A stretch of DNA of 44,761 bases from a bacterium (GTDB lineage: Bacteria > Bacteroidota > Rhodothermia > Balneolales > M1805): assembly GCA_006226965.1 (NCBI GenBank), contig SBGQ01000166.1, positions 1 through 44,761 on the forward strand. The letters run 5' to 3'. Positions 3,923 through 30,787 of this stretch are shown here, in pieces. The position numbers and the translations under genes were made by a program. A model generated the notes under the pieces. It was not told the origin of the DNA. It made no database searches and saw nothing but the letters and a program-made list of their open reading frames with translations. Position 1 is the first letter of the stretch; every line of letters starts with the position of its first letter.

Positions 3923-6900
3923 ATGGGATTTTCAGAGAAAAATAGACGCACAAGCATTTGGACTAAACTCGGGTTACTCCTTTTTTTGAGTGTTATCATA
4001 CAAACAAACAGTAGTGCACAGTATTTCAGTGAGCAGGATATCGACAATCATCAGATAAGCGAATTGGAGTATGCTTCTTTTCGGGCTGTTGATATAAACG
4101 GCGACGGTTGGATGGATGTGGTTTCGTGGACGAGAGATACTTCTATTGAAAGTGAATTGTCTTCAAACATCTATATCCAAATGAATCGAAACGGAGTGTT
4201 GACCACTCAATTAGCCAACCTTCAAAACTTGCCCAGAGATTTGCGTTTCGATTCGCGCATCAATCTTGAGTTTTATGATGCAGATGCAGATAATCTGTTG
4301 GATGTATTCATGATAGATTACATTGACAATGGTATTCTTCACTTTAAAACCACTTTAGATGCACAAGGTAATCCGGTTTTCACCTTTGTGCAGGAATGGG
4401 AAAATCCGACAAACGAATATCTTTTAGATTTGTCATTCGCCGATGTAAATGCGGACGGATTTATGGATTTGATTTCAAATGCAGGTTTATTCATCAATTC
4501 AGGAAATGAGCAAACCTTTGAATTAAGTTATGAAAGCTGGAATAATTGGGCGCCCGGTAGCTATGTAAATCTCGGGAGCGAGGGTTTTAGGACGTTTATC
4601 GTTTATAGCGGTGATAAAGAGTTTATTCGAACAGGAGATTTTAACCAAGACGGATACGTGGATGTGTATTTCAGCACCATGGAAGCCGTATTGCTGAATA
4701 ATCAGGGAAGCGGATTTGAAGAATTTGCCTTGCCAACCGGTTTCTTTCGTCCGGAACTTGCAGATATTAATCAGGATGGACGTTTAGATATTGCCGGAGT
4801 TCGGACTGATAACTATACGTTTGGTTACGCCCTAAATCTCGAAAACGGGTTTGAATTATCGGATTATGAAATTGATTATTTCCGTTTTGTAGATAATGAT
4901 GTAGCCGATTTAAGCGGATTGGGCCGCCCAGAATTTACACTCGGATTTCTTATTTCAACTCATGTTGATTCCGTACAAGGATTCGGAGTTGTGCCGAATT
5001 ATTGGAACTCAGAACTTGAACCGCATCAAATTGTAGAAAATATGCCGCGCGAGAATGCGGTAATTTTAGATGTTAACGGCGATTCTAAATTAGATGTGCT
5101 CTTAAGCGGAGATGTTAAAGCTTTAGGAGAAAATTATTACATCAAGTATTTGCAAAACAGGATTGCGGTTGCCAATGTAGCTCCGGCTGCGCCTTCAGCC
5201 ATTACGGTTGCAACCAACCCGAATAGTCCGGGAAGTGTTTTTATCACATTTGAAACCCCTGAGCAAGCCGATCAAAATCAGGATTATCAATTGTTTTATG
5301 TTGATTACGATTTAATGGATATGGAAACGGGCGAATACCTTACAAAAGCTTTAGCCAAAGAAAACGGAATGCGTCTAAGTGGTGATTTCGGCACGTTTTT
5401 GAATACCGGGAAAATTACTCTTCAACATCTGGAGCAAGAAAAAACCTATAAAATTCGTGTTCAATTTGTGGATTTGGGAATGAAGGGTTCCGCATTTGCT
5501 GAGTTGGAATTTCAGTTAGAACAACAAAATTTGCTTCCCTTAGCTCAAGAATTAACCGAAAGCTGGCAAAATTATACTATTCAATGGGCAAATCTGAGCG
5601 GTAATTCGAACCCAGAATTTATTGTTCAGGGGGAACTTAATGGAAACGGTTCAACGGCAGTGTTTCAGATTAGTGAACAAAACCAGATTGAGTTGTTGGG
5701 AAATATGGGAATTCCCGAACGTAAAGAAGCACAATCCTTTTGGTTTGATTTTAATCAGGATGGAATGCAAGATGTGCTCATGTATGGGAAAGACCAAGCT
5801 AATTTTTATGAACTATCCGTTCTGAAAAACTCAAACGGAATTTTTACACCTGTTGCAACGGATGGAATCTTCCTTGATAATGTTGAACCGGAACGTTTGA
5901 TATTTACGGATTTAACAGGGAAAGGAAGAGGCGAGTGGCTTGCTTTTCATCCTGATAATGGTTTGCAAGTTTATGAGTGGCGATACGAAGATGAACAATT
6001 ACGCTTCTCATTGATGGAACATCTTTCACTTCCTGTTTCTGCATCAACTATTCAGGGTATTCAACTTGCCGATGTTAATCAAAACGGAAAATTGGAATGG
6101 TTGGTTATTCAAACGGTTAACGAACAATTAGACTTGGTACGTTTTGAACAAAATGAGCAAGGAAATTGGCAGGAATTGGAGCGAGAGTCGTTACTCATGA
6201 GTCAATTAGACTTGCAAAAAGGAATGTATGTGCAGGAATTAAACGAAACAGAAATTCCGGAATTTGTTGTGTACGGTAAAAATTCTTCGGACGAAAATGT
6301 AGTAAAGGTCTTTGCCTACAACAGCGATTTAAATGCGTTTGAAGTGATTGTTCAACAGACATCAAGCGGAAAAATTCTATTCGATTTCGCTGATGTAAGC
6401 CTAAACGGATATCCTGATTTTATCTTAATTAAAGAAGACGCTGAGCAAAATCCGCAGTTTACGATTAATCAAAATGTAGCTAATGCAAACGGCACAAGAC
6501 GGTTTCAAGAATGGAATGATGGTTTGGATTTTGTAACTCCGTTAAAGTCCGGTGCTGTTTCAGTAACCGATTACAATGCCGACGGAAAGCCGGATATTAT
6601 TCTTTCAGGATATTCTTCGGAAGGTGAATCCAAAACAACGGTTTATATCAACAACTTTGTCGGCGAAGTGCAAGCTGCTTCCGTTCCTGAGCAAGTAACA
6701 GCGATGTTGCAAGAAAATAATCAGGTATTTATTCAATGGAATACTTCAAATGATGCTCAAAGCGGTAATGAAGCCCTGCACTATCAGTTACGTATTCAGG
6801 ATGCTGAAACGCAAGAAGAGTATCGTATTATAACCACTCAAGAAAACGCAAACATTCCCGCATCTACTCAAATATTACCCGTTTTCGGGACAGAATTGAT

Positions 6901-9900
6901 GTTGAGTTTACCTGAAGGAAAAACGTATTCAATTTCGGTTCAATCCATTAACGCGAGCGGTGTACATAGCGCATTTTCACAAGCTGTTTCGGTTGAAGTG
7001 CCATATTTGCCATTTGCAGAAATAAAAGAGATTACAAACGATATAAGTAACGGTCTGGCAAGAATCGTAGATGTTAATGCCGACGGATTCTTAGATATTC
7101 TTCAATCCGGTTACGGTGGTTTTAATTTCTTCGAAAGCGGAGTTTGGTTGAATACGGAAAAAGAAGATGGCTCAAGGAGTTGGGATTTTCAGGAAATGCC
7201 AAGCTTGCCGGAATTAGGTGCATCACGAATCAGTTTTGGAGATATTGACGGTGATACCAAGCCGGATATGCTTATTTCCGGAGCAACGAGTACCGGGTTA
7301 AAACAAACCAAAGTCTATCAATTATTTACGCAAGGCGTGGGTTATTCGTGGTCTGAGCGTCAGGAATTGTCGGGAGTAATAGTTGGGGATTCCAAGTTTT
7401 TTGATGCGGATAACGATGGCGATTTAGACCTGATATTGACAGGTTCTGGTTTGTACGGCACCGTTCTCGAATTGTATCTGAACACGAATCCGGCGCCCGG
7501 AACCTATCGTGAAAATCCGTTTGAATTAGATTTTGAAGCGTTTTCCCCAGCTATCGGATACGATTTTTCTTCGGTTGATGTAGCCGATGTAAACCAAGAT
7601 GGTTGGTTAGATGTGCTCATCAGCGGGAATAATTATTCAGCAGTTGGCGGAAGAGGGTTAACCACTGACATTTATATGAATTCGGGCGGAAGATTTACGC
7701 TAGATGAAAAGGCATCAGAAAACTTGCCCGAGAATTATCACGGAACGGCAAAATTCGCAGATGTAAATAATGACGGGTTCCCGGATGTACTAGTAGTAGG
7801 AAGAGAAGGTGCCTTTTTGAGTATTCATCAGGGAAAAAATGATGATGGAACGATTGCATATACAACTTCCGCTTTACCGATTCCGGCGAGCGTTGGTGCA
7901 CGATTCGATGTCGGCGATTTAAACAATGACGGTTTTGTAGATGTGATTGTAAGTGGCCGTGAACAAATTGACGGAGCTAATACCGACCCGAAACGCGTGT
8001 GGATGTTACTTAATACAGGTGACGAGAGTTTTGAATTAGCCCCGGAAAAATGGACAGCCGGATTCCCGGAAACATGGAACGGCTCAGTTGAAATGGGCGA
8101 TTTGAACGGCGACGGTTCGATGGATGTGGTTTTTGCGGCATCAGACTTAACAAAAAAAGGGCGTGTGTTCATCAATCAATTGCATTGGATGGCGCCGGAA
8201 GAAATTCACTCGAATGAGCAACCGGAAGCGCCACTTCGTCCTCAAATCATATCAAAAAACGGAGTTCAGAAGTTGACATGGAGTTTTGGCGGAGATGACC
8301 ATACTTCGGCAAAAGCCATGCGATATAATATAAAAATGAGTTCAGCAGAAATCGGCGATAACCTAATTCGCTCTTCCGTTTCCGAGGATGGTAAACCACG
8401 TTTTATGACAAGCGGATTCGCCGTAAATAGAATGGAAGTAGATGTGCCGGAAATTAATCCTGATGAGGTGTACAGGTGGTCTGTTCAGGCAATCGATCAA
8501 TCAGGAAAACACTCAGCCTGGACTTTCGGAGGAGTGATAAACGATGAAGCATCGCAAGCCGCAGAATATCGTTCTTTAGTTGAAAACGGTTCCGTTGAAA
8601 AACGAATTAACATGGTCTTTATAGCAGAGGCCTGGACAGAAAACCAACGAGAAGCATTTTTTGCGGAAGCTGCAAGAATGGCAGATTCTATCGTAGCCAT
8701 TTCACCCTACAAGGAATATCGAAATTTCTTTAATATGCACGCCATTTTTGTGCCTTCAAACGATGGCGAAATCACGTATTGGAACGGAAATTCCACACAA
8801 GAACGGGATACCTATTTTAATGCATATCGAGATAATTACAACAATCCGTATTACATAACTATCCCGAATGCAGACGGAAAAAATGCGCAGAATTTGGCGA
8901 CGAACGGCTCTCGAGAAGCCGGAGATTATGCTGATGGTTTCGGCAAAGTAGATCAATTATTAAGTCGATTTTTACCGGAATACGATTTGGTTGTGATGCT
9001 GTGTAAATCCAATTCATTGGCAGGTTCTGCGGTTTTATGGCAGGATAGAACCATCGGATTTGTTGGAATTCCATCGGTTGATGCCGCAGGAAACCGTTTC
9101 AAAATTGCTAGACATGAATTGGCGCATTCTTTAGGTTTGGGTGATGAATACGGTGCAAGTTCGAACGTACGAGATCATTTTCAGGCTGATTTTCCGAATG
9201 TGTTCCGCGCAAGTGTGGTTAACAGAAACACGGCTTATGAAGAAGCGCCGTGGGCAAAATGGTTAACAAATGAGTTTAATTACCTTTCTTTTGGCGGGGC
9301 GTTTAACGGTAATGCGACTTCACACGGTTTGTTTGAAGGCGGGCAATACGTAGATAGAAATTATTTCAGAGCGCACTATAATGACATTATGCGCGATTTT
9401 ACGGTGAATAAATTTGGTCCGGTAAATCGCGAGTGGTTAATAAAAGCGTTTTATGGTTACCGTTGGCATGTAGAAGGAATGCCTGAACCGTTTCACAGAA
9501 TACGTCCGCTTCATTTAATTGAAGACCACACGCCCAACGAAGAGCTTATTCAATTAGAAGTGAATCAATCCTTGGAATTATCTACAGATTTGTTGATTCC
9601 TTCGCATGGTGGCGGTTTGCAAGTTGTTTGGCGATTGGATGGTGAAGTTGTTGAGACGGTATCATCGAGTATTCAGATTCCGTTTAACGAATTGAGCAGT
9701 GGTGTACATCAGGTAAGTGTACATGTAAAAGACATCACACCGTATTCTGATGAAATTCCGGCAGAAGCATATAATTCTATAGAAAACAGACGCTGGGTGA
9801 TTCCTGCAAATGATGAATTGGGCTATCTGAGCGACGAAGTTGAGTGGACGTTTACCGTACCCGAAACTGTTGCAAACGAGCAATCAACAAGTCCAACGGA

Positions 9901-10159
9901 ATTTGCCTTACATCAGAATTATCCGAATCCGTTTAATCCAAGCACACAAATACGTTTTAGTTTAGCCAAAGCAGGATTGGTTCGCTTAGAGGTGTTCGAT
10001 GCTATCGGTAGGAAGGTCGCCGTTTTAGCTGAAAATCAATTTAGTGCAGGAACACATTCCGTTCAGTTTAGCGGACATAATCTATCTAGCGGAATCTATT
10101 TTTACACACTTAAAACAGAACAACAAAGCTTGACAAGAAAGATGATGCTCATCAAATAA
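3923..10159 (+). CDS. Giant secreted FG-GAP/fibronectin/M64 metallopeptidase with C-terminal sorting domain
   Basis: A 2078-residue secreted protein. A signal peptide (about 1-32) is followed by blocks of FG-GAP/VCBS-type repeats, each with a calcium-binding DxNxDGxxD motif ('VDINGDGWMD' near residue 56, 'GDFNQDGYVD', 'ADVNQDGWLD', 'GDLNNDGFVD'); I count about 18, some degenerate. Fibronectin type III-like segments interrupt them near 420-535, 915-1025 and 1435-1540. From about 1560 the sequence resembles peptidase family M64 (IgA peptidase family): 'NMVFIAEAWTENQ', then the zinc motif 'HELAHSLGLGDEYG' with His1731, Glu1732 and His1735. The last 80 residues form a sorting domain starting 'NYPNPFNPSTQIRF' (about 1998) and ending 'TRKMMLIK'. 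The peptidase domain probably cleaves an extracellular glycoprotein or protein; the substrate is unknown. It lies directly downstream of a kinase/regulator pair and ends at a strong terminator. Confidence 0.9.
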   Translation: MGFSEKNRRTSIWTKLGLLLFLSVIIQTNSSAQYFSEQDIDNHQISELEYASFRAVDINGDGWMDVVSWTRDTSIESELSSNIYIQMNRNGVLTTQLANLQNLPRDLRFDSRINLEFYDADADNLLDVFMIDYIDNGILHFKTTLDAQGNPVFTFVQEWENPTNEYLLDLSFADVNADGFMDLISNAGLFINSGNEQTFELSYESWNNWAPGSYVNLGSEGFRTFIVYSGDKEFIRTGDFNQDGYVDVYFSTMEAVLLNNQGSGFEEFALPTGFFRPELADINQDGRLDIAGVRTDNYTFGYALNLENGFELSDYEIDYFRFVDNDVADLSGLGRPEFTLGFLISTHVDSVQGFGVVPNYWNSELEPHQIVENMPRENAVILDVNGDSKLDVLLSGDVKALGENYYIKYLQNRIAVANVAPAAPSAITVATNPNSPGSVFITFETPEQADQNQDYQLFYVDYDLMDMETGEYLTKALAKENGMRLSGDFGTFLNTGKITLQHLEQEKTYKIRVQFVDLGMKGSAFAELEFQLEQQNLLPLAQELTESWQNYTIQWANLSGNSNPEFIVQGELNGNGSTAVFQISEQNQIELLGNMGIPERKEAQSFWFDFNQDGMQDVLMYGKDQANFYELSVLKNSNGIFTPVATDGIFLDNVEPERLIFTDLTGKGRGEWLAFHPDNGLQVYEWRYEDEQLRFSLMEHLSLPVSASTIQGIQLADVNQNGKLEWLVIQTVNEQLDLVRFEQNEQGNWQELERESLLMSQLDLQKGMYVQELNETEIPEFVVYGKNSSDENVVKVFAYNSDLNAFEVIVQQTSSGKILFDFADVSLNGYPDFILIKEDAEQNPQFTINQNVANANGTRRFQEWNDGLDFVTPLKSGAVSVTDYNADGKPDIILSGYSSEGESKTTVYINNFVGEVQAASVPEQVTAMLQENNQVFIQWNTSNDAQSGNEALHYQLRIQDAETQEEYRIITTQENANIPASTQILPVFGTELMLSLPEGKTYSISVQSINASGVHSAFSQAVSVEVPYLPFAEIKEITNDISNGLARIVDVNADGFLDILQSGYGGFNFFESGVWLNTEKEDGSRSWDFQEMPSLPELGASRISFGDIDGDTKPDMLISGATSTGLKQTKVYQLFTQGVGYSWSERQELSGVIVGDSKFFDADNDGDLDLILTGSGLYGTVLELYLNTNPAPGTYRENPFELDFEAFSPAIGYDFSSVDVADVNQDGWLDVLISGNNYSAVGGRGLTTDIYMNSGGRFTLDEKASENLPENYHGTAKFADVNNDGFPDVLVVGREGAFLSIHQGKNDDGTIAYTTSALPIPASVGARFDVGDLNNDGFVDVIVSGREQIDGANTDPKRVWMLLNTGDESFELAPEKWTAGFPETWNGSVEMGDLNGDGSMDVVFAASDLTKKGRVFINQLHWMAPEEIHSNEQPEAPLRPQIISKNGVQKLTWSFGGDDHTSAKAMRYNIKMSSAEIGDNLIRSSVSEDGKPRFMTSGFAVNRMEVDVPEINPDEVYRWSVQAIDQSGKHSAWTFGGVINDEASQAAEYRSLVENGSVEKRINMVFIAEAWTENQREAFFAEAARMADSIVAISPYKEYRNFFNMHAIFVPSNDGEITYWNGNSTQERDTYFNAYRDNYNNPYYITIPNADGKNAQNLATNGSREAGDYADGFGKVDQLLSRFLPEYDLVVMLCKSNSLAGSAVLWQDRTIGFVGIPSVDAAGNRFKIARHELAHSLGLGDEYGASSNVRDHFQADFPNVFRASVVNRNTAYEEAPWAKWLTNEFNYLSFGGAFNGNATSHGLFEGGQYVDRNYFRAHYNDIMRDFTVNKFGPVNREWLIKAFYGYRWHVEGMPEPFHRIRPLHLIEDHTPNEELIQLEVNQSLELSTDLLIPSHGGGLQVVWRLDGEVVETVSSSIQIPFNELSSGVHQVSVHVKDITPYSDEIPAEAYNSIENRRWVIPANDELGYLSDEVEWTFTVPETVANEQSTSPTEFALHQNYPNPFNPSTQIRFSLAKAGLVRLEVFDAIGRKVAVLAENQFSAGTHSVQFSGHNLSSGIYFYTLKTEQQSLTRKMMLIK

Positions 10160-10182: not shown

Positions 10183-10216
10183 AAAGGCATCAGGCGGAAG
10201 CTTGATGCCTTTTTTA
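10183..10216 (+). terminator. Rho-independent terminator after the M64 protein gene
   Basis: A 13-bp stem (10183-10195 with 10200-10212, one G-U pair) encloses a GGAA loop and runs into a T tract on the plus strand. It sits 23 bp after the M64 stop codon and reaches into the stop codon of the convergent minus-strand gene. Confidence 0.85.
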
Positions 10217-11065
10217 TAGATTGGTTTCCATTAATGTTCGTGCTTCTTGGATAATGCGCTGAATTCGTGGTACTTCGTAGCCCAATTTGGTAAGAACAGA
10301 CTCTGCTACAACTAATTCCCGGCAAAGTGTGATTCCTTCATTCAAAATCTCTTGTTTTTCTTTTTTTGTGAGTTGATGTAATAAGGTGATTGGCAGAAGT
10401 TGAAAGCGTTTAATTTTATCCAACAAACTTTCACCGTTTGGGCTATCCCAACCCATGCTCCACATAGAACTGCATCTGGCAAAGGTTCGGGCATCGTCGG
10501 TAAGTTTGGTATTGGTAACTAAACCGCCTGAGATAAATCGTTTTTCATCAGGATGATCTATAAGCCAACGTTCCTTTAAATCGTTAATTCTGGAATTCAC
10601 ATATAATGCCACTTTAACATCGGATTTAACGCCCGATTGATTGTGAAATTTGCATTCAATGAAACGTAATTCGCTCTCGTTTTCAACCAGTACATCCACT
10701 TCGTGAAATACGCATTTCCCTTGAAGAACCACACCCGTTTTTGTAGAATAACCTTCTTCACGATAAATAGCAGCCACTAAATGTTCAAAAGGAAATCCGG
10801 TTGGCCCCAATTCCATGATTGCTTTTTTTAATTGATACGTTGAAGCTGCCGGACGATTTTGCATCTTCAGCAATTTGAATGCGCGCTCGTAAATTTTTTG
10901 AGTACGCATTCCGTTAATCAAATCCACTTCAACCGTGTTGGCGATGTCCTCGGCAATATGTTCGTTTGCCCCGCTTCGGACTAAAGAAAAAATGAGCTTA
11001 TTCCGATTAAAAGGAACTAACTCGCCGTTGGCTTTTTTTATGAGTGTTACATCGTGGACGGACAT
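10214..11065 (-). CDS. ATP-cone domain / Mrr-like restriction-endonuclease-fold protein
   Basis: A 283-residue protein that joins two domains. Residues 8-90 form an ATP-cone ('VTLIKKANGELVPFNRNKL', '...GMRTQKIYERAFKLL'), the nucleotide-sensing module of ribonucleotide reductases and NrdR. Residues 90-150 fit a restriction-endonuclease (Mrr_cat-like) fold: a helix 'FEHLVAAIYREEGY' (Glu94), then Asp124 in 'HEVDVL' and the Glu137-x-Lys139 pair in 'IECKFH', giving E...D...ExK. The remaining helical part (150-283) is not recognised. Similar ATP-cone/nuclease fusions occur in Bacteroidota; as far as I know their function is not established. It starts 6 bp after the pheA stop, so the two are probably co-transcribed. 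No methyltransferase or other restriction partner is adjacent, so a standard restriction role is unlikely. Confidence 0.8.
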   Translation of the reverse strand: MSVHDVTLIKKANGELVPFNRNKLIFSLVRSGANEHIAEDIANTVEVDLINGMRTQKIYERAFKLLKMQNRPAASTYQLKKAIMELGPTGFPFEHLVAAIYREEGYSTKTGVVLQGKCVFHEVDVLVENESELRFIECKFHNQSGVKSDVKVALYVNSRINDLKERWLIDHPDEKRFISGGLVTNTKLTDDARTFARCSSMWSMGWDSPNGESLLDKIKRFQLLPITLLHQLTKKEKQEILNEGITLCRELVVAESVLTKLGYEVPRIQRIIQEARTLMETNL

Positions 11066-23175: not shown

Positions 23176-24144
23176 TTGAACAGCAACCTTTTCATTAAAA
23201 ACATCTGGAATCTTTGTGTTCAAAGATTTTCACTTCGCAAAATAACTTGGGTTGTATTGCTTTTTAGCATTATCGGAGCCGTTTTTTTTCAGATAGAATA
23301 CGTTTATCCACAATTATCAGTGGAACATCCGTATTCAGATGCACTTATTTATCAAAATCTGGCAACCGGCAATCTGCATTTTTTTGGCCCGACACATATT
23401 ACGCATCGAATTGTATTACCGGGCTTAGTTCAAGTAGTTCATAACCTTACTCAAACTCCCGTTCATTATGTATTTGCAGCGTTTAATTTGTTGATGTTGA
23501 TTCTCGTTTTATGGCGAGTGTATCGAACCAAAGACGGATTGACCTGGGCATTTTTTACGTTTTTAGTGCTTTCTCTGCCGGCATTTTGGCGCGGCTTTTT
23601 TCTGCCGATGACGGATGCTTTTTTATGGGGATTTCTAACGCTGTTTTGGTTAGAAGCTGAAAAAACAAAATCAAATCCTTTGGCCTTGTTTTTATTGTTT
23701 TCGGCTGCCTTATTCAGTAAAGAAATTGCCGTTTTGAGTTTGATTTTTATTCCGTTCAGCTCGCTGGAAAACAAAAAAAAGGTGGTTTTATCAACCATTT
23801 TACCCATTATGTGTTGGCTGTTTTTAGAATCTTATTACAGTTCGGGTTCACAATCAAACTATGTATTTCAACCAGAGCGCTGGTTATTCGACATTCAAAA
23901 AAATCTGTCATTAAACCTTATTTGGGCACCAAAATATGTGCTTTCCGGTTTGTCCGGTTTTTTGGTTGCCTATGCTTACCGTTGGTTTATCACCGGAAAA
24001 AAATATGTAGTTGAAATAGCGCCGGAGCTCATTTTACTCACGCTTCTTTTATTAATTGCACCTGAAAACTCGCCTAGAATTTTGTTTTCATTTACCGGTA
24101 TAATGGCACTTCGATTAAGCACAAAAAAAAGCCACCTTCTGTAA
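23176..24144 (+). CDS. Multispanning membrane protein, possibly GT-C glycosyltransferase-like
   Basis: A 322-residue protein with about eight or nine hydrophobic helices. The first predicted loop carries 'EHPYSDALIYQNLATG', an acidic motif after helix 1 that resembles the catalytic loop of GT-C membrane glycosyltransferases, but I cannot assign a family with certainty. The likely start is a TTG at 23176 (NSNLF...); no ATG occurs before the second half of the membrane core, and the frame is open from 23131. The last codons overlap the stem of a terminator that serves the convergent gene. Function unknown; a membrane-bound sugar transferase is a guess. Confidence 0.65.
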   Translation: MNSNLFIKNIWNLCVQRFSLRKITWVVLLFSIIGAVFFQIEYVYPQLSVEHPYSDALIYQNLATGNLHFFGPTHITHRIVLPGLVQVVHNLTQTPVHYVFAAFNLLMLILVLWRVYRTKDGLTWAFFTFLVLSLPAFWRGFFLPMTDAFLWGFLTLFWLEAEKTKSNPLALFLLFSAALFSKEIAVLSLIFIPFSSLENKKKVVLSTILPIMCWLFLESYYSSGSQSNYVFQPERWLFDIQKNLSLNLIWAPKYVLSGLSGFLVAYAYRWFITGKKYVVEIAPELILLTLLLLIAPENSPRILFSFTGIMALRLSTKKSHLL

Positions 24145-24161
24145 TAACAAAAGATGGCTTT
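24128..24161 (-). terminator. Terminator for the minus-strand beta-propeller gene, inside the 3' end of the membrane protein gene
   Basis: An 11-bp stem (24128-24138 with 24151-24161, one mismatch) with a 12-nt loop. On the minus strand it is followed by a run of eight T residues; on the plus strand there is no T tract. Its far arm and T tract encode the last residues of the plus-strand membrane protein. Confidence 0.7.
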
Positions 24162-24187: not shown

Positions 24188-26149
24188 TTATTTGATTAAG
24201 ACCATGGATTTGGTTTGCACCGCGTTACCTGTTTTTAAGGTGTAGAAATAGGTTCCGCTCGATAAATCATCAGCCTGAATCTGGAATTCGTGGTATCCGG
24301 TTCCCAAGTTGGAATGCGTAACAGCTTTCACTTTTTGTCCCAACATGTTGAAAATATCAAGCGATACAAACTCAGCCTGACTTAACGTGAATCCGATTGT
24401 AGTAGATGGGTTAAAGGGATTCGGGAAGTTTTGATTGAGCGTGATGCTGTTCGGGTTTTGAAGTGTTTTCCCGTTTTCAATGGAAGTGTTTAAGTCTTTT
24501 ACACTCAATTTTGCAATAAAACCTGCTTGTGAATTTTCAGGTGAAGTCAAGGTAAAAGGCGCCAAGTCCAGAGTGCCGTTGTAATCACCGAACAGATACA
24601 ACATCCCACCGTCTTCATCAGCGTAGAAAATATCTAAAGGGGTAGTGCGGAAAGGAACTTCTTTACGAGCAATGCGGTCAACACCTTCCGAGCCTGTTCC
24701 TGCTAATTGTTTAACCCATTTGAAGGTTCCTGCAGAATCATACATGGCGATAAACAAGTCGTTTTCGGAATTGGTATTAAGAATAACCGGCTCATCAGTA
24801 TCCATGGCAAAGATGATTTTTTCCGAAAAACTGCCAAGAACATACACGTTTTCGTGGGCATCAGAAGTGACTTTAAAACCCTCCGCAAAACTGAATCCAA
24901 ATTGTTTTGCCCAAATGGCATCACCTTGCAAGTCGTATTTTACCACATACCCGTCAATGGCATCACCTTCTGTATTTAATACGATATCGGAGCCTACAAA
25001 ACTGGCTTCCCCGTTAAATGAGCCCGTAACATAAAACGAACCTTGCTGGGTACTTTCAATATCTAAACCTATTACTTGTTCTCCGGCGCCGATAAAGGAC
25101 GCAAAATACCAATTCCCGTTAACATCCCAGCTCATCACCATGGTGTCGTCTGATCCGGTATCGTTATCCCAACTATCATCCGAGTTCGGAAATTCAATAA
25201 TACCTTCACCAATAGTGGTAATAATGTTCAAATAACCTAAAGTGTCTGTGGAGACTGAGATGCCATTATCATCGTTCGGGGTTCCGAATGTAGTAACTCA
25301 AAAAGGTTGACTTCCGTCTTTATCGAGTGAGGCAATGAAAATATCACTACCGCCAACAGAAGAAACGGTTTCGCCAAAAAGGTTTGTTCCGGAAAAACTC
25401 CCGATTATGTAAGGATAACCTTCACTGTCTAATTCGATATCAGCAACTGTATTTCGGCCGGAAGCTAATGAGGATTCTGAACCCTCGCTGTTACTCTCGC
25501 CACCCATTGCCCATTCGAAGGTGCCGTCTTGGTCGTACTTGGCAACGAATAATTCAATATTAAGCAAAGACTCAGAGCTGCCGGTTAAGGCAAAAACGGA
25601 ATCGCCATCTGCATCACGGAAAGTCATGGAGCGAACAAAACCACCACCGACGTATAGATTATTTTCGGAATCGATGGTCATAGCTAAACCGCCATCAACG
25701 GAAAGATAATCATCGGATAAAACGGCTCCGTTTCCGGTACGAATCCATTCAATTTCGTTATTGGTATTGATTTTAATAAGGTACAAATCATAGCCTTGTG
25801 AACTCTCGTACCAAACCTCGTTTACTTCAATTTTTCCGGTAAAACCACCGGTTATATAGAGATTACCGTTACTGTCTCGAACAGAGCGGCCAATCTGTAC
25901 CACACCATCACCCGAAATATCGTATGCATCGGTAAAGGAATACATTTCGGAAGTGACATTCCCGTTTTTTAGGTTCAATAAATCCATATTCGATGCAAAC
26001 GAGGGTCGGAAAAAGCTTGCATTATTTATTCTGAATTTTAAATTACTAGAGCCAATCGGAAATGCGAAGGCCGATAATTGTTGCTGAACAACAACGGTAA
26101 AGAGTAGAATAAAACTCAGCAGTAGTTTTTTGTTAAGGTTTTTATTCAT
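24188..26149 (-). pseudogene. Secreted SBBP-type beta-propeller protein with sorting domain, interrupted by one in-frame TGA
   Basis: A 654-codon frame, intact apart from a single TGA at 25300-25298 (codon 284). It starts with a signal peptide after a strong GGAGG ribosome site (26154-26158). It consists of SBBP-like repeats ('NLYITGGFTG', 'YVTGSFNGEASFVGSD', 'DGTFEWAMGG', 'GDAIWAKQFG', 'GTFKWVKQLAG') and ends with the sorting domain 'NFPNPFNPSTTIGFTL' to 'QTKSMVLIK'. The frame does not shift: the 22 codons after the TGA read VTTFGTPNDDNGISV... straight into the second half. In each repeat a Trp follows 'DG-x-x-x', and the TGA sits exactly there ('DGSQPF*VTTFGTP'), so TGG to TGA is the simplest explanation. 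Either a recent nonsense mutation, a sequencing error or readthrough. Without the second half the protein would lose its export domain. It lies 15 bp behind lnt. Confidence 0.85.
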
Positions 26150-26164
26150 AGATCCTCCAAAGGA

Positions 26165-27817
26165 TTAAGGTTTTTTTATGACGATTAATACAAAAATGAA
26201 AAGTGCTCCAAGCGTATAGAAATTCGGATTACGCATATAAAAGCTAGAAATGTTACTCAGTACCACTCGAGATACTAAGCTTCCGTTGATAAGCCAAGGA
26301 ATACTGTGGGTGATTTCTCCGAAAGGATTGGTAGTAAACGTAAATCCCATGGGCGAAGATTTCGCAATTGAGCGTCGGTATTCAATACTTCTCATAATGG
26401 AATACCCGACCAATCCGTTTGGCATCGTAGAAAGTACTTTACCGAAATGCGTTTCATTGGCTAAGCCTGCAATAAAATTTGGATTAGCTTTCAATATGGA
26501 TTTTGGATTGGTAAATAATAAATCCCAACAAATAAGCGGTTGAACGCTAGTTATTCGATTGTCTTTAGTTAAAAACTTTAGAAGGCCTTCGTTTTTTCCG
26601 GTGCTAATATGAATCAAATTACCAACTTGAATAGCTGTGTTAGACAAGCTTGGGAAGGTTTCTGCTAAAGGAACTTTTTCCGTGAAGGGCATTGCGTGTT
26701 CTTTTCGATACACATTCAAATCATTCGCAGTAATAGTTCCTTCTAATACATTCCATGCAAACTGAGGAGTTAGAAGTAACGCCGCATTAAACACTTCGTA
26801 ATTTCTGTTTAAATAGTGTTGCAGAGGCGGAATGGGGGCACCTTCTTTAAAAAATTCGATATCAAAACTGCCGCTTAGTACAGCTGTTTCCCACTTTAAT
26901 ACATGGCTGAGTAGGTATTCCTGTACTTGTTTGTTTTCTTTGAATTGAATGGCAACAGCACTTTCCGGCCAAAGAATTAAATCAGGTTTTTGGTTTTGAA
27001 TTACCGAATCTGTAGTAGTTACATAGGTTTGCATAATAGAAACCCAACTACTGTCGGTCGCAGATTTGGGATCCGGATATTCTTCTTGAATAGCCATAAC
27101 CGAAACGGATTTATTCAAACGAGGTTCGTATTCGAGTTTTGAATATCCTAAGTACAAAAGAGGGAGTGCAAAGTGAAGTAAAATTATCCCCGTTTTTAGA
27201 AGTACCTTTGAGTTGCCGAATAACTTAAAACCACTACTATTTTTATTAGTACGAATAAAATGAAGCAAGGCATAAATGGCGATGTTCAGACTAATAATCC
27301 ACGTTGAAATACCTGTATATCCTGTAATGTCGATGTATTGAATTAAGCGCGGGTAAGAAGCCTGGCAAATGGATAAGGTATAAATCGGCATTCCGAATAA
27401 TTGCTCAACAATCCAGTAATCATAGGCTGGCCAAAGAAAGGCAATTGCAAAAAAGCTTCTGGTTAAACCGATACGGTTTTTTAGGAAAAAAATGAGTTGC
27501 AATGGAAAACTGAATAAAACAGCTCCAATCAAAATGACGAAAAATCCGGCGAGCGGGCTATTAATTAAAAAAGTGCCCAGCGCAAAGGTCAAATAAATAG
27601 AAGCGAATAAATAGGAGAGAACAAAGTGAGATAAAAAGGTTTTTCGTGACTCTAATGCTAGAAACAAAGGAAAAAAAGCAGCCCAAGCTGTAAATGCAAA
27701 TGAAAATCTATGCCATTCGTTCACCGAAAGACCCAGTAATACGCCTCCGAGAAGTGTTAAAACACCTGCTCTAATTACACTGATTTCTTTTGTTTGATTA
27801 ACTGTTTGAACGGCCAT
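26165..27817 (-). CDS. lnt: Apolipoprotein N-acyltransferase
   Basis: A 550-residue inner-membrane enzyme that transfers the third acyl chain to the N-terminal cysteine of lipoproteins. The N-terminal half holds about six membrane helices; the periplasmic nitrilase-like domain (about 240-520) carries the predicted triad Glu285 ('LILWPESAVA'), Lys372 ('YRKEHAMPFTEKVP') and Cys430 ('LICWDLLF'), matching Glu267-Lys335-Cys387 of the E. coli enzyme. A last helix closes the protein ('FYTLGALFIFVLIVI'). Length is slightly above the usual 500-520. It is followed after 15 bp by the interrupted beta-propeller gene, so the two may share a transcript. It diverges from the 7TM hybrid kinase across 177 bp. 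Confidence 0.92.
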   Translation of the reverse strand: MAVQTVNQTKEISVIRAGVLTLLGGVLLGLSVNEWHRFSFAFTAWAAFFPLFLALESRKTFLSHFVLSYLFASIYLTFALGTFLINSPLAGFFVILIGAVLFSFPLQLIFFLKNRIGLTRSFFAIAFLWPAYDYWIVEQLFGMPIYTLSICQASYPRLIQYIDITGYTGISTWIISLNIAIYALLHFIRTNKNSSGFKLFGNSKVLLKTGIILLHFALPLLYLGYSKLEYEPRLNKSVSVMAIQEEYPDPKSATDSSWVSIMQTYVTTTDSVIQNQKPDLILWPESAVAIQFKENKQVQEYLLSHVLKWETAVLSGSFDIEFFKEGAPIPPLQHYLNRNYEVFNAALLLTPQFAWNVLEGTITANDLNVYRKEHAMPFTEKVPLAETFPSLSNTAIQVGNLIHISTGKNEGLLKFLTKDNRITSVQPLICWDLLFTNPKSILKANPNFIAGLANETHFGKVLSTMPNGLVGYSIMRSIEYRRSIAKSSPMGFTFTTNPFGEITHSIPWLINGSLVSRVVLSNISSFYMRNPNFYTLGALFIFVLIVIKKP

Positions 27818-27994
27818 TGAACTGCGATAAACGAATTTTTATTCATTGTAAAGTTGATGAGTTTTATCGTTTTAAAAGTGCCAAAAAATGATTCCGGAAT
27901 GCCAAGCTGTATTTCTTTCAACGTAAATGAGCTATTTTGCCGACAGTTGAGTACAATTATTTGAAAACGATTACTCATTGTTTAAATCCATAAA

Positions 27995-30787
27995 ATGTTT
28001 TCTTCCTTGAAGTTTTATTTAAAAGTGTTATGTCTTTTGTTGTGTTGGTTCGTTTCAATCAGTACAAAGACATGGGCAAAATCGGATAGTGATTCATTAT
28101 TACATGTCGGGTATGATTCTATTTTAAGCAAAGGGGGACGTTATTTGGTGCTTTCATCCAATTGGTATATGAGCGTTGAAAAGCCCGAAATCAGTATAGA
28201 TGGAAATGCAATTCCTCATGATAAATCATTTACCCACTTAGAATTGATTCAGGAGTTTAATAAACCGGATTGGGGGAAATTTGCATGGTTGGAAACCTCG
28301 TTTTATGTGGATTCCAGCTTGGCAGGTGTTCCTTTAAGTCTGTCTTATTTTAATCTTCAACCGGTACATATCTGGATTAACGGTAGGTTGATTTTACAAG
28401 CCGGGAAGCCATCAAAAGAAAAAAATGAAGAGATTCCTCCCCTGTTTCTAAAAGCTGAAATGGCTGGTGTAACCTTGAGAGAAGGGAAGAACACCATGCT
28501 TATTGAGCTTTCTGCTCATAATGATAATTTTTTAATGCTTGGATATACGGCTTTTAAAAGTGGGATTATGCTCCGAGTTTACAAACAATTTGATTCATCA
28601 ATTAGAAGAAAGAGAGCGTTGACATTTGGCGGTACAGCTTTACTGCTGCTTATGTTATTAATTGTGCATGCTTTCCTGGCTTATAAATCAATCAACAAAT
28701 ACCATATATATGTCACCTTATGTACGCTATTTACTCTGGTGCACAATTCCTTAAGTTTAAGTGATTCATTTTTTGATTGGAACTATTCTGTTCTGCCATT
28801 TTTTAATGTTTCGTTTCCATTATCCTACTTGCTCTCCTTTTATTTTTACATTTTTTCTGTCCGAACCATTCTAAAACTCAAAGCGCATACAGCGTATTAT
28901 ACATCAACGCTGATAGTGTTTGCGGCACTCAGTTTATACTTTTCGCATACCAATGCAAATGCGCTGTTTTTTACACTCGGATTAGCAACCATTCTCTTTT
29001 TGATTATCAGTATTCAGTCTTTATTTGAGGCTAAAAAAGTTTCTGCACAGACACGAATCGGAGTCTTAGCCGGAGGATTAATCGTAACTGTTTTAGGTGC
29101 GCTTCTGTATTTAATAGTATATGTCGTATTCGGTGTCTCGATTGAAATTCTTATTTACGTTTCCATTCTACTTTCCTACTCAGGAATCCCGGTTTCACTC
29201 ACGCTCTATGTAATTCAAAGCTATTCTGATTTATTTGAGACCTTGGAACAAAAAATTCAAGAGCGAACGGAAGAGCTTGAAGCATCTGTGCGTTTCAAAT
29301 CAGATTTTCTGAGCAATATTTCCCATGAGTTCATCACGCCTTTAACGATCTGCAAAAACGTACTGCATCTCTCACAGGCAAATAATAAAACGGATTCCGT
29401 GCTTCAAAACGATTTTTTGGTGATTGAAGACAATCTAAATCGCTTGCACAATATGGTGAAGCAATTACTGGAACTCACCCAAACCGACCAGCGCGAATTA
29501 AAACTTAACAAAGAAACCATATTGGCGTTGCCTCTTTACAAAGATGTAGTTGATGGGTTTAAGCCCTTGCTCAGCACTCGAAATATTCAACTTAAGACGA
29601 ATTACAGAGATTCCTCGGTTTATATCCATGCCGATAAAAATCGTATTCAAATCATTTTAAACAATCTGTTATCCAATGCGATTAAGTTTACACCGGTTAA
29701 CGGAACCATTTATGTTGAAACAGAAGTGCAAAATAACCAATGGGTGTTTTCTGTCCGTGATACTGGGCCGGGTATTCCCAAAGGTTTTGAGGAAATAATT
29801 TTTGATCGTTTTCATCGCATCAATCAGAACGATTCGAATTATGTGGGAGGTGCCGGCATTGGACTAGAGTTAAGCAGAACTTTGGCGCGACTTCATCATG
29901 GTGAGGTTCTAGCCGATCCGAATCAAAAAGATGGTGCATTATTCCAATTTTTCTTGCCGATAGTTCAGCCCGATGAACTGTATGCACAAGTCGCCGCTAA
30001 TGCTGATGAAACGGCTCAAATGGAAACGCAGTTTAGGCAGCCATCAAGCACAAAACAAGGGTATCATATTCTTTTGGTTGATGATAATACAGCCATGCAG
30101 GAAACAGTTTCCAGAATTTTGAAGCCTTTAGGTTTGGTTCGGGTTGCAGGAAACGGAGCCGAAGCCATTCAACTCCTTTCACAATTCACACCCGATTTAA
30201 TCATTTCTGATATAATGATGCCGGTTATGAACGGATACGAATTCGTAAAAAAAGTATCCGGAAATCCACAATGGAACGGCATTCCGATTTTAATGCTCAC
30301 TGCAAAAATTATCGGTGATGAAAAAACGGAGTTGTTAAAAATTGGAATCATCGATTACATCACAAAACCCTTCAACCCGGAACATTTATTGTTGAAAGTG
30401 CAAAATCTGCTGCGTTTTTACGAGAAAAGAAAGAAAATGGAGCTTAGTTTGCCTGCGAATGAAATTTCTAAGGATAAAGACTTACACGAACAAATGGCAG
30501 CGTACATCTTGGAAAATATTCAGGATGCGAACATTACGATTGAGCGACTTGCCGACCGATTTCTACAGAGCAGAAGAACCTTGTTCAGAGTGATTGAAGC
30601 AGAAACGGGGATGACTCCCGCTGAGTTTGTTCGCGAAATCCGCTTAAAGAAATCCTTAGAGATTTTGCAGGTAAGAAAAAATATTCACTTAGACGAGTTG
30701 GCGTATTCTGTTGGTTATAAAACGTCTAGCGGGTTTAAAAATGCGTTTATCGAACGGTTTGGATATCACCCCACAAAAAAGGAGTAA
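27995..30787 (+). CDS. 7TM hybrid histidine kinase with receiver and AraC output domains
   Basis: A 930-residue one-protein signalling chain. A signal peptide (about 1-29) precedes an extracellular beta-rich domain (30-200, 'HIWINGRLILQAG' resembling galactose-binding folds) and seven predicted membrane helices (about 207-405), as in 7TMR-DISM receptors. Then come a coiled coil, HisKA ('FLSNISHEFITPLTI', His444; the usual LR after HE is replaced by FI), HATPase ('NLLSNAIKFTP', 'DTGPGIPKG'), a receiver (about 690-805, 'ILLVDDN', Asp739 in 'ISDIMMPVMNG') and an AraC-type DNA-binding domain (830-930, 'ITIERLADRFLQSRRTLFR', 'AYSVGYKTSSGFKNAF'). Phosphotransfer would run within the protein to DNA binding. 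The stop codon directly abuts that of the convergent UPF0316 gene. Confidence 0.92.
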   Translation: MFSSLKFYLKVLCLLLCWFVSISTKTWAKSDSDSLLHVGYDSILSKGGRYLVLSSNWYMSVEKPEISIDGNAIPHDKSFTHLELIQEFNKPDWGKFAWLETSFYVDSSLAGVPLSLSYFNLQPVHIWINGRLILQAGKPSKEKNEEIPPLFLKAEMAGVTLREGKNTMLIELSAHNDNFLMLGYTAFKSGIMLRVYKQFDSSIRRKRALTFGGTALLLLMLLIVHAFLAYKSINKYHIYVTLCTLFTLVHNSLSLSDSFFDWNYSVLPFFNVSFPLSYLLSFYFYIFSVRTILKLKAHTAYYTSTLIVFAALSLYFSHTNANALFFTLGLATILFLIISIQSLFEAKKVSAQTRIGVLAGGLIVTVLGALLYLIVYVVFGVSIEILIYVSILLSYSGIPVSLTLYVIQSYSDLFETLEQKIQERTEELEASVRFKSDFLSNISHEFITPLTICKNVLHLSQANNKTDSVLQNDFLVIEDNLNRLHNMVKQLLELTQTDQRELKLNKETILALPLYKDVVDGFKPLLSTRNIQLKTNYRDSSVYIHADKNRIQIILNNLLSNAIKFTPVNGTIYVETEVQNNQWVFSVRDTGPGIPKGFEEIIFDRFHRINQNDSNYVGGAGIGLELSRTLARLHHGEVLADPNQKDGALFQFFLPIVQPDELYAQVAANADETAQMETQFRQPSSTKQGYHILLVDDNTAMQETVSRILKPLGLVRVAGNGAEAIQLLSQFTPDLIISDIMMPVMNGYEFVKKVSGNPQWNGIPILMLTAKIIGDEKTELLKIGIIDYITKPFNPEHLLLKVQNLLRFYEKRKKMELSLPANEISKDKDLHEQMAAYILENIQDANITIERLADRFLQSRRTLFRVIEAETGMTPAEFVREIRLKKSLEILQVRKNIHLDELAYSVGYKTSSGFKNAFIERFGYHPTKKE

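Follow-up and report, generated by a model that had tools for sequence, protein, structure and literature searches.

Does the TGA codon that interrupts a gene for a secreted beta-propeller protein reflect a fresh mutation, an error in the sequence or a recoding event? In the window (the whole 44,761-nt stretch of DNA that was analysed) the minus strand from 26149 to 24188 is one 653-codon frame, bounded by an ATG at 26149 and a TAA at 24190-24188; the sole stop inside it is the TGA at 25300-25298 (codon 284). That the two halves share a frame and are separated by nothing but this TGA had been claimed in the original prediction, and it holds across all 653 codons.

The interrupted propeller gene

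The part upstream of the TGA (25298-26149, minus strand) encodes 283 amino acids with a signal peptide-like N terminus and the first SBBP-type propeller blades. The downstream part (24188-25297, minus strand; 369 codons and the TAA) encodes the other blades and a T9SS type A C-terminal sorting domain (PF18962/TIGR04183; 24200-24427, minus strand). In the read-through frame both profiles scored over their cut-offs, the SBBP repeat PF06739 with 23.4 bits (cut-off 20.5) and PF18962 (Por_Secre_tail) with 40.6 bits (cut-off 27); the read-through product is an SBBP propeller with a T9SS sorting domain. A terminator-like hairpin, 15 pairs followed by a T run, lies 3′ of the TAA (24128-24161, minus strand); no such hairpin was found after the TGA.

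Mechanical calling yields two ORFs at this locus, which could be taken for two separate genes whose polypeptides assemble into a split propeller. However, the sequence directly past the TGA offers neither a start codon nor a ribosome site nor a signal peptide; the first start, TTG at 25231, comes 23 codons on, and none of the starts in the downstream part leads into a signal peptide. The start of the ‘second ORF’ is mechanical only. Moreover, every full-length propeller homologue is a single chain. We consider a pair of genes extremely improbable; the locus should be annotated as one interrupted gene, not two.

In a structure predicted from a three-row alignment (pLDDT 55 overall, ∼55-85 in the blades, used only for counting blades) residues 84-482 form six four-stranded blades. 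An invariant Trp falls at the fourth strand of every blade (W135, W213, position 284, W347, W413 and W478). The model thus puts the stop in the last strand of blade 3 of a ring predicted to have six to seven blades. The nearest solved structure, in both profile and fold searches, was the propeller of CylK (PDB 7fh6, 7ron), which has the repeat pattern and the propeller fold in common with the window protein of the SBBP / T9SS type A family. CylK, however, is a cyanobacterial alkylating enzyme; the likeness seen here is one of fold and profile. SBBP propellers with the T9SS type A sorting domain (PF06739, PF18962/TIGR04183) have the same sorting tail as the window protein, and differ from it in that the window copy is interrupted.

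TGA decoding in this genome

As codon 284 occupies a Trp position, one could suppose that TGA has been reassigned to Trp throughout the genome, or else that it is read as selenocysteine. We surveyed stops (not frameshifts) in 845 kb, 22% of the genome, made up of forty 20-kb stretches and the window. TGA ends 42 of the 278 long frames. There were also 42 same-frame junctions of the type coding-stop-coding, and the one in the window is alone in continuing as coding sequence at once with no start nearby; in nearly all of the others a start codon follows within ∼13 codons, and the single junction that lacks one has a non-coding score directly past the stop. The search for further genes with TGA at Trp positions, suggested along with the original prediction, returned no other such TGA in the 845 kb. 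The matched stretches of 70 T9SS tails and 16 TonB barrels were free of stops.

The termination machinery is likewise that of a genome in which TGA is a normal stop. RF2 is intact, with its SPF and GGQ motifs. The prfB UGA frameshift site senses RF2 activity at UGA, and prfB here retains the canonical autoregulatory +1 site AGGAGG-TAT-CTT-TGA-C (stretch L036, ∼1503-1521), where MADIKVYTADHITELFKRLDALRRYL runs into an in-frame TGA and the +1 frame goes on as DYDARK... Among 36 tRNA genes there is a single tRNA-Trp (anticodon CCA) and no tRNA with a UCA anticodon, and all matches to tRNA-Sec and SelB were below the curated cut-offs. Stop usage, the intact RF2 and the lack of a recoding tRNA or SelB together rule out a code change; we give reassignment to Trp and selenocysteine, both refuted by stop usage and RF2, practically no chance.

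A change in tRNA-Trp(CCA) itself may also allow UGA reading, as in the system with a 4-bp anticodon stem (PMC13092985). The tRNA-Trp of this genome (stretch L048) resembles that system in being the only, CCA-bearing tRNA-Trp and in having a weak pair, G27-U43, at the top of its anticodon stem. Unlike in that system, all five anticodon-stem pairs form, there is no wider use of TGA at Trp positions, and the arms of the tRNA are shared with relatives that have TGG in the propeller gene. It carries A9 and G24, and none of the UGA-reading changes listed in PMC13092985 was found in it. It is identical to the tRNA-Trp of a genome from another family of the same order, and two relatives with TGG at this codon (G004 and G008) have matching D and anticodon arms. 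No suppressor tRNA-Trp was found in this genome; reading of the stop by a suppressor was rejected, as tRNA-Trp has no UGA-reading changes and a UCA tRNA is lacking. The G27-U43 pair is common to several relatives.

Codon 284 in relatives and the sequence past the stop

The comparison genomes, 129 of the same order and 245 of the class, represent families and genera other than those of the window. We found 15 copies of the propeller family in 10 genomes; 10 of the 129 genomes of the order were counted as propeller holders at E ≤ 1e-100, i.e. the gene is accessory within its order. The source genome has no second copy, while some relatives from the same order have two, one of them >1000 aa. In scans of contig databases the first yielded no relative and the second mainly matches to the sorting domain. 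The stop is confined to the window copy, with none of the 14 other class copies interrupted.

At the position of codon 284 all 12 covering homologues from the same order (nine full-length, three longer or partial) have TGG; these relatives are of other families, whereas the original prediction had called for a comparison of the codon in close relatives. The full-length homologues are 41-46% identical to the window protein, the nearest ∼46%. Trp also stands at this position in two more distant SBBP proteins (27-31% identity), which come from Ignavibacteria-type genomes. It had been predicted from the repeat pattern that the stop replaces a Trp, and this residue proved to be invariant not only in the 12 covering homologues but in the other blades as well. 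The lesion is a single base, TGA in place of TGG, and no other damage was seen.

There is no decay in the downstream half, which matches the upstream half in conservation and coding character and evolves no faster. Where the nine full-length homologues agree without exception, the window protein differs from them at 17 of 69 columns upstream of the stop and at 10 of 67 in the propeller part that follows; the terminal branch of the window accounted for 0.22 of the tree length before the stop and for 0.17-0.18 after it. These values bear out the earlier remark that the repeat continues past the stop with no decay. The coding score is 0.53 upstream and 0.54 downstream of the TGA. We saw no relaxed constraint past the stop, as expected for a young change. 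It follows that the interruption is young, an error, or tolerated.

How young a loss would have to be was estimated by simulating neutral drift. The downstream half has 139 single-base routes to another stop; with 0.05 substitutions per site it was still stop-free in ∼15% of runs, and with 0.08 in 4%, ∼95% of runs having gained a further stop by that point. Any loss would therefore be young. The indel rate was set to 0.07 per substitution, and the bound quoted here comes from stops only.

Nonsense change, base error or readthrough

We consider it probable that a recent substitution of one base turned a Trp codon (TGG) into the nonsense codon TGA in this accessory gene for a secreted beta-propeller; the base would then be real in the organism and the fragment inactive, two points that we infer. 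Loss of the gene is plausible because it is accessory in its order. The normal RF2 would terminate ribosomes at the TGA, giving a product of 283 aa that stops inside blade 3 and has no T9SS sorting domain. With less than three full blades, such a fragment would not be expected to close a ring, nor, as the sorting domain is missing, to be exported by the T9SS; very probably the truncated protein is non-functional and not secreted. Basal misreading of UGA by tRNA-Trp would insert the native residue and could produce traces of the full-length protein, thus the allele may be leaky. Pseudogenes with a single nonsense codon and in-frame stop alleles (PMC7918605) likewise have one stop, an otherwise intact frame and conserved coding sequence downstream, and beside them the window gene shows nothing distinctive. 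As a nonsense allele it would be of little import beyond annotation.

The main rival is an error of assembly or consensus, or a minority strain variant, in a draft sequence of an organism that has the gene whole. The assembly is a draft in 184 contigs, and the lesion is one isolated base, with everything else intact and the neighbours conserved. On the other hand, in the 845 kb no other gene was interrupted in like manner by a stop, and thus low local quality is unsupported. We regard this reading as rather unlikely, though one to be taken seriously. The intact Lnt-like and kinase neighbours and the absence of a second lesion, which suit a recent nonsense change, are also compatible with an error, or with a functional gene that is leaky.

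The remaining reading is that tRNA-Trp reads through the stop, by leakiness or for a function, so that a full-length secreted protein is made, alone or beside the short form. According to literature cited in PMC7918605, UGA stops leak in bacteria, with insertion of tryptophan; here the inserted Trp would equal the native residue, and the downstream sequence is, as far as visible, fully constrained. Still, the context speaks against it. We found no stimulatory RNA structure or context past the TGA: the stop is followed by a G, and the RNA beyond it is folded no more than shuffled sequences are (z -0.38). The tRNA-Trp, with its five pairs, A9 and G24, has no known UGA-reading changes (PMC13092985). 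prfB keeps its RF2 autoregulation site, and the stop, absent from the copy of every other species, is not conserved. Ending in blade 3, the short form would leave the ring broken and would lack the export domain, so that a useful soluble protein is unlikely. Readthrough is therefore improbable, and for its programmed form there is no positive support. It is still more doubtful that a real TGA is tolerated through misreading by tRNA-Trp at a level of a few per cent, favoured by the weak G-U pair, with the stop acting as dosage control on the surface-exported propeller. The original prediction had offered a recent TGG-to-TGA change, a read error or functional readthrough: the first two fit the data, and the third, with a short soluble form and a long form carrying the sorting domain, gained nothing in its favour: there was no recoding machinery, no RNA structure and, in the fifth of the genome surveyed, no second such TGA. 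Should reads confirm the base and the full-length protein be found, near-cognate decoding of one UGA as Trp would have a clean example in nature.

A recent nonsense change, our preferred reading, would be a less interesting lead than the conserved neighbourhood of the gene. The propeller gene follows, after 15 bases, a gene for an Lnt-like apolipoprotein N-acyltransferase (26165-27817, minus strand); a stronger Lnt match exists elsewhere in the genome, of which this Lnt-like gene is a paralogue. Divergent from it is a gene for a hybrid histidine kinase / response regulator with an AraC-type HTH (27995-30787, plus strand). Nearly every propeller stretch fetched from same-order relatives, within the bounds set by contig ends, contains the Lnt-like gene, the hybrid kinase gene or both, and most contain all three genes. 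The trio (24188-30787) looks like a functional unit.

Elsewhere in the window, 3923-10159 encodes a secreted protein of 2078 aa with FG-GAP repeats, a Peptidase_M64 match, fn3 and a T9SS sorting domain. At 10214-11065, adjoining a chorismate mutase/prephenate dehydratase gene, a 283-aa protein has weak ATP-cone, Mrr_cat-like and AF1548-like C-terminal matches.
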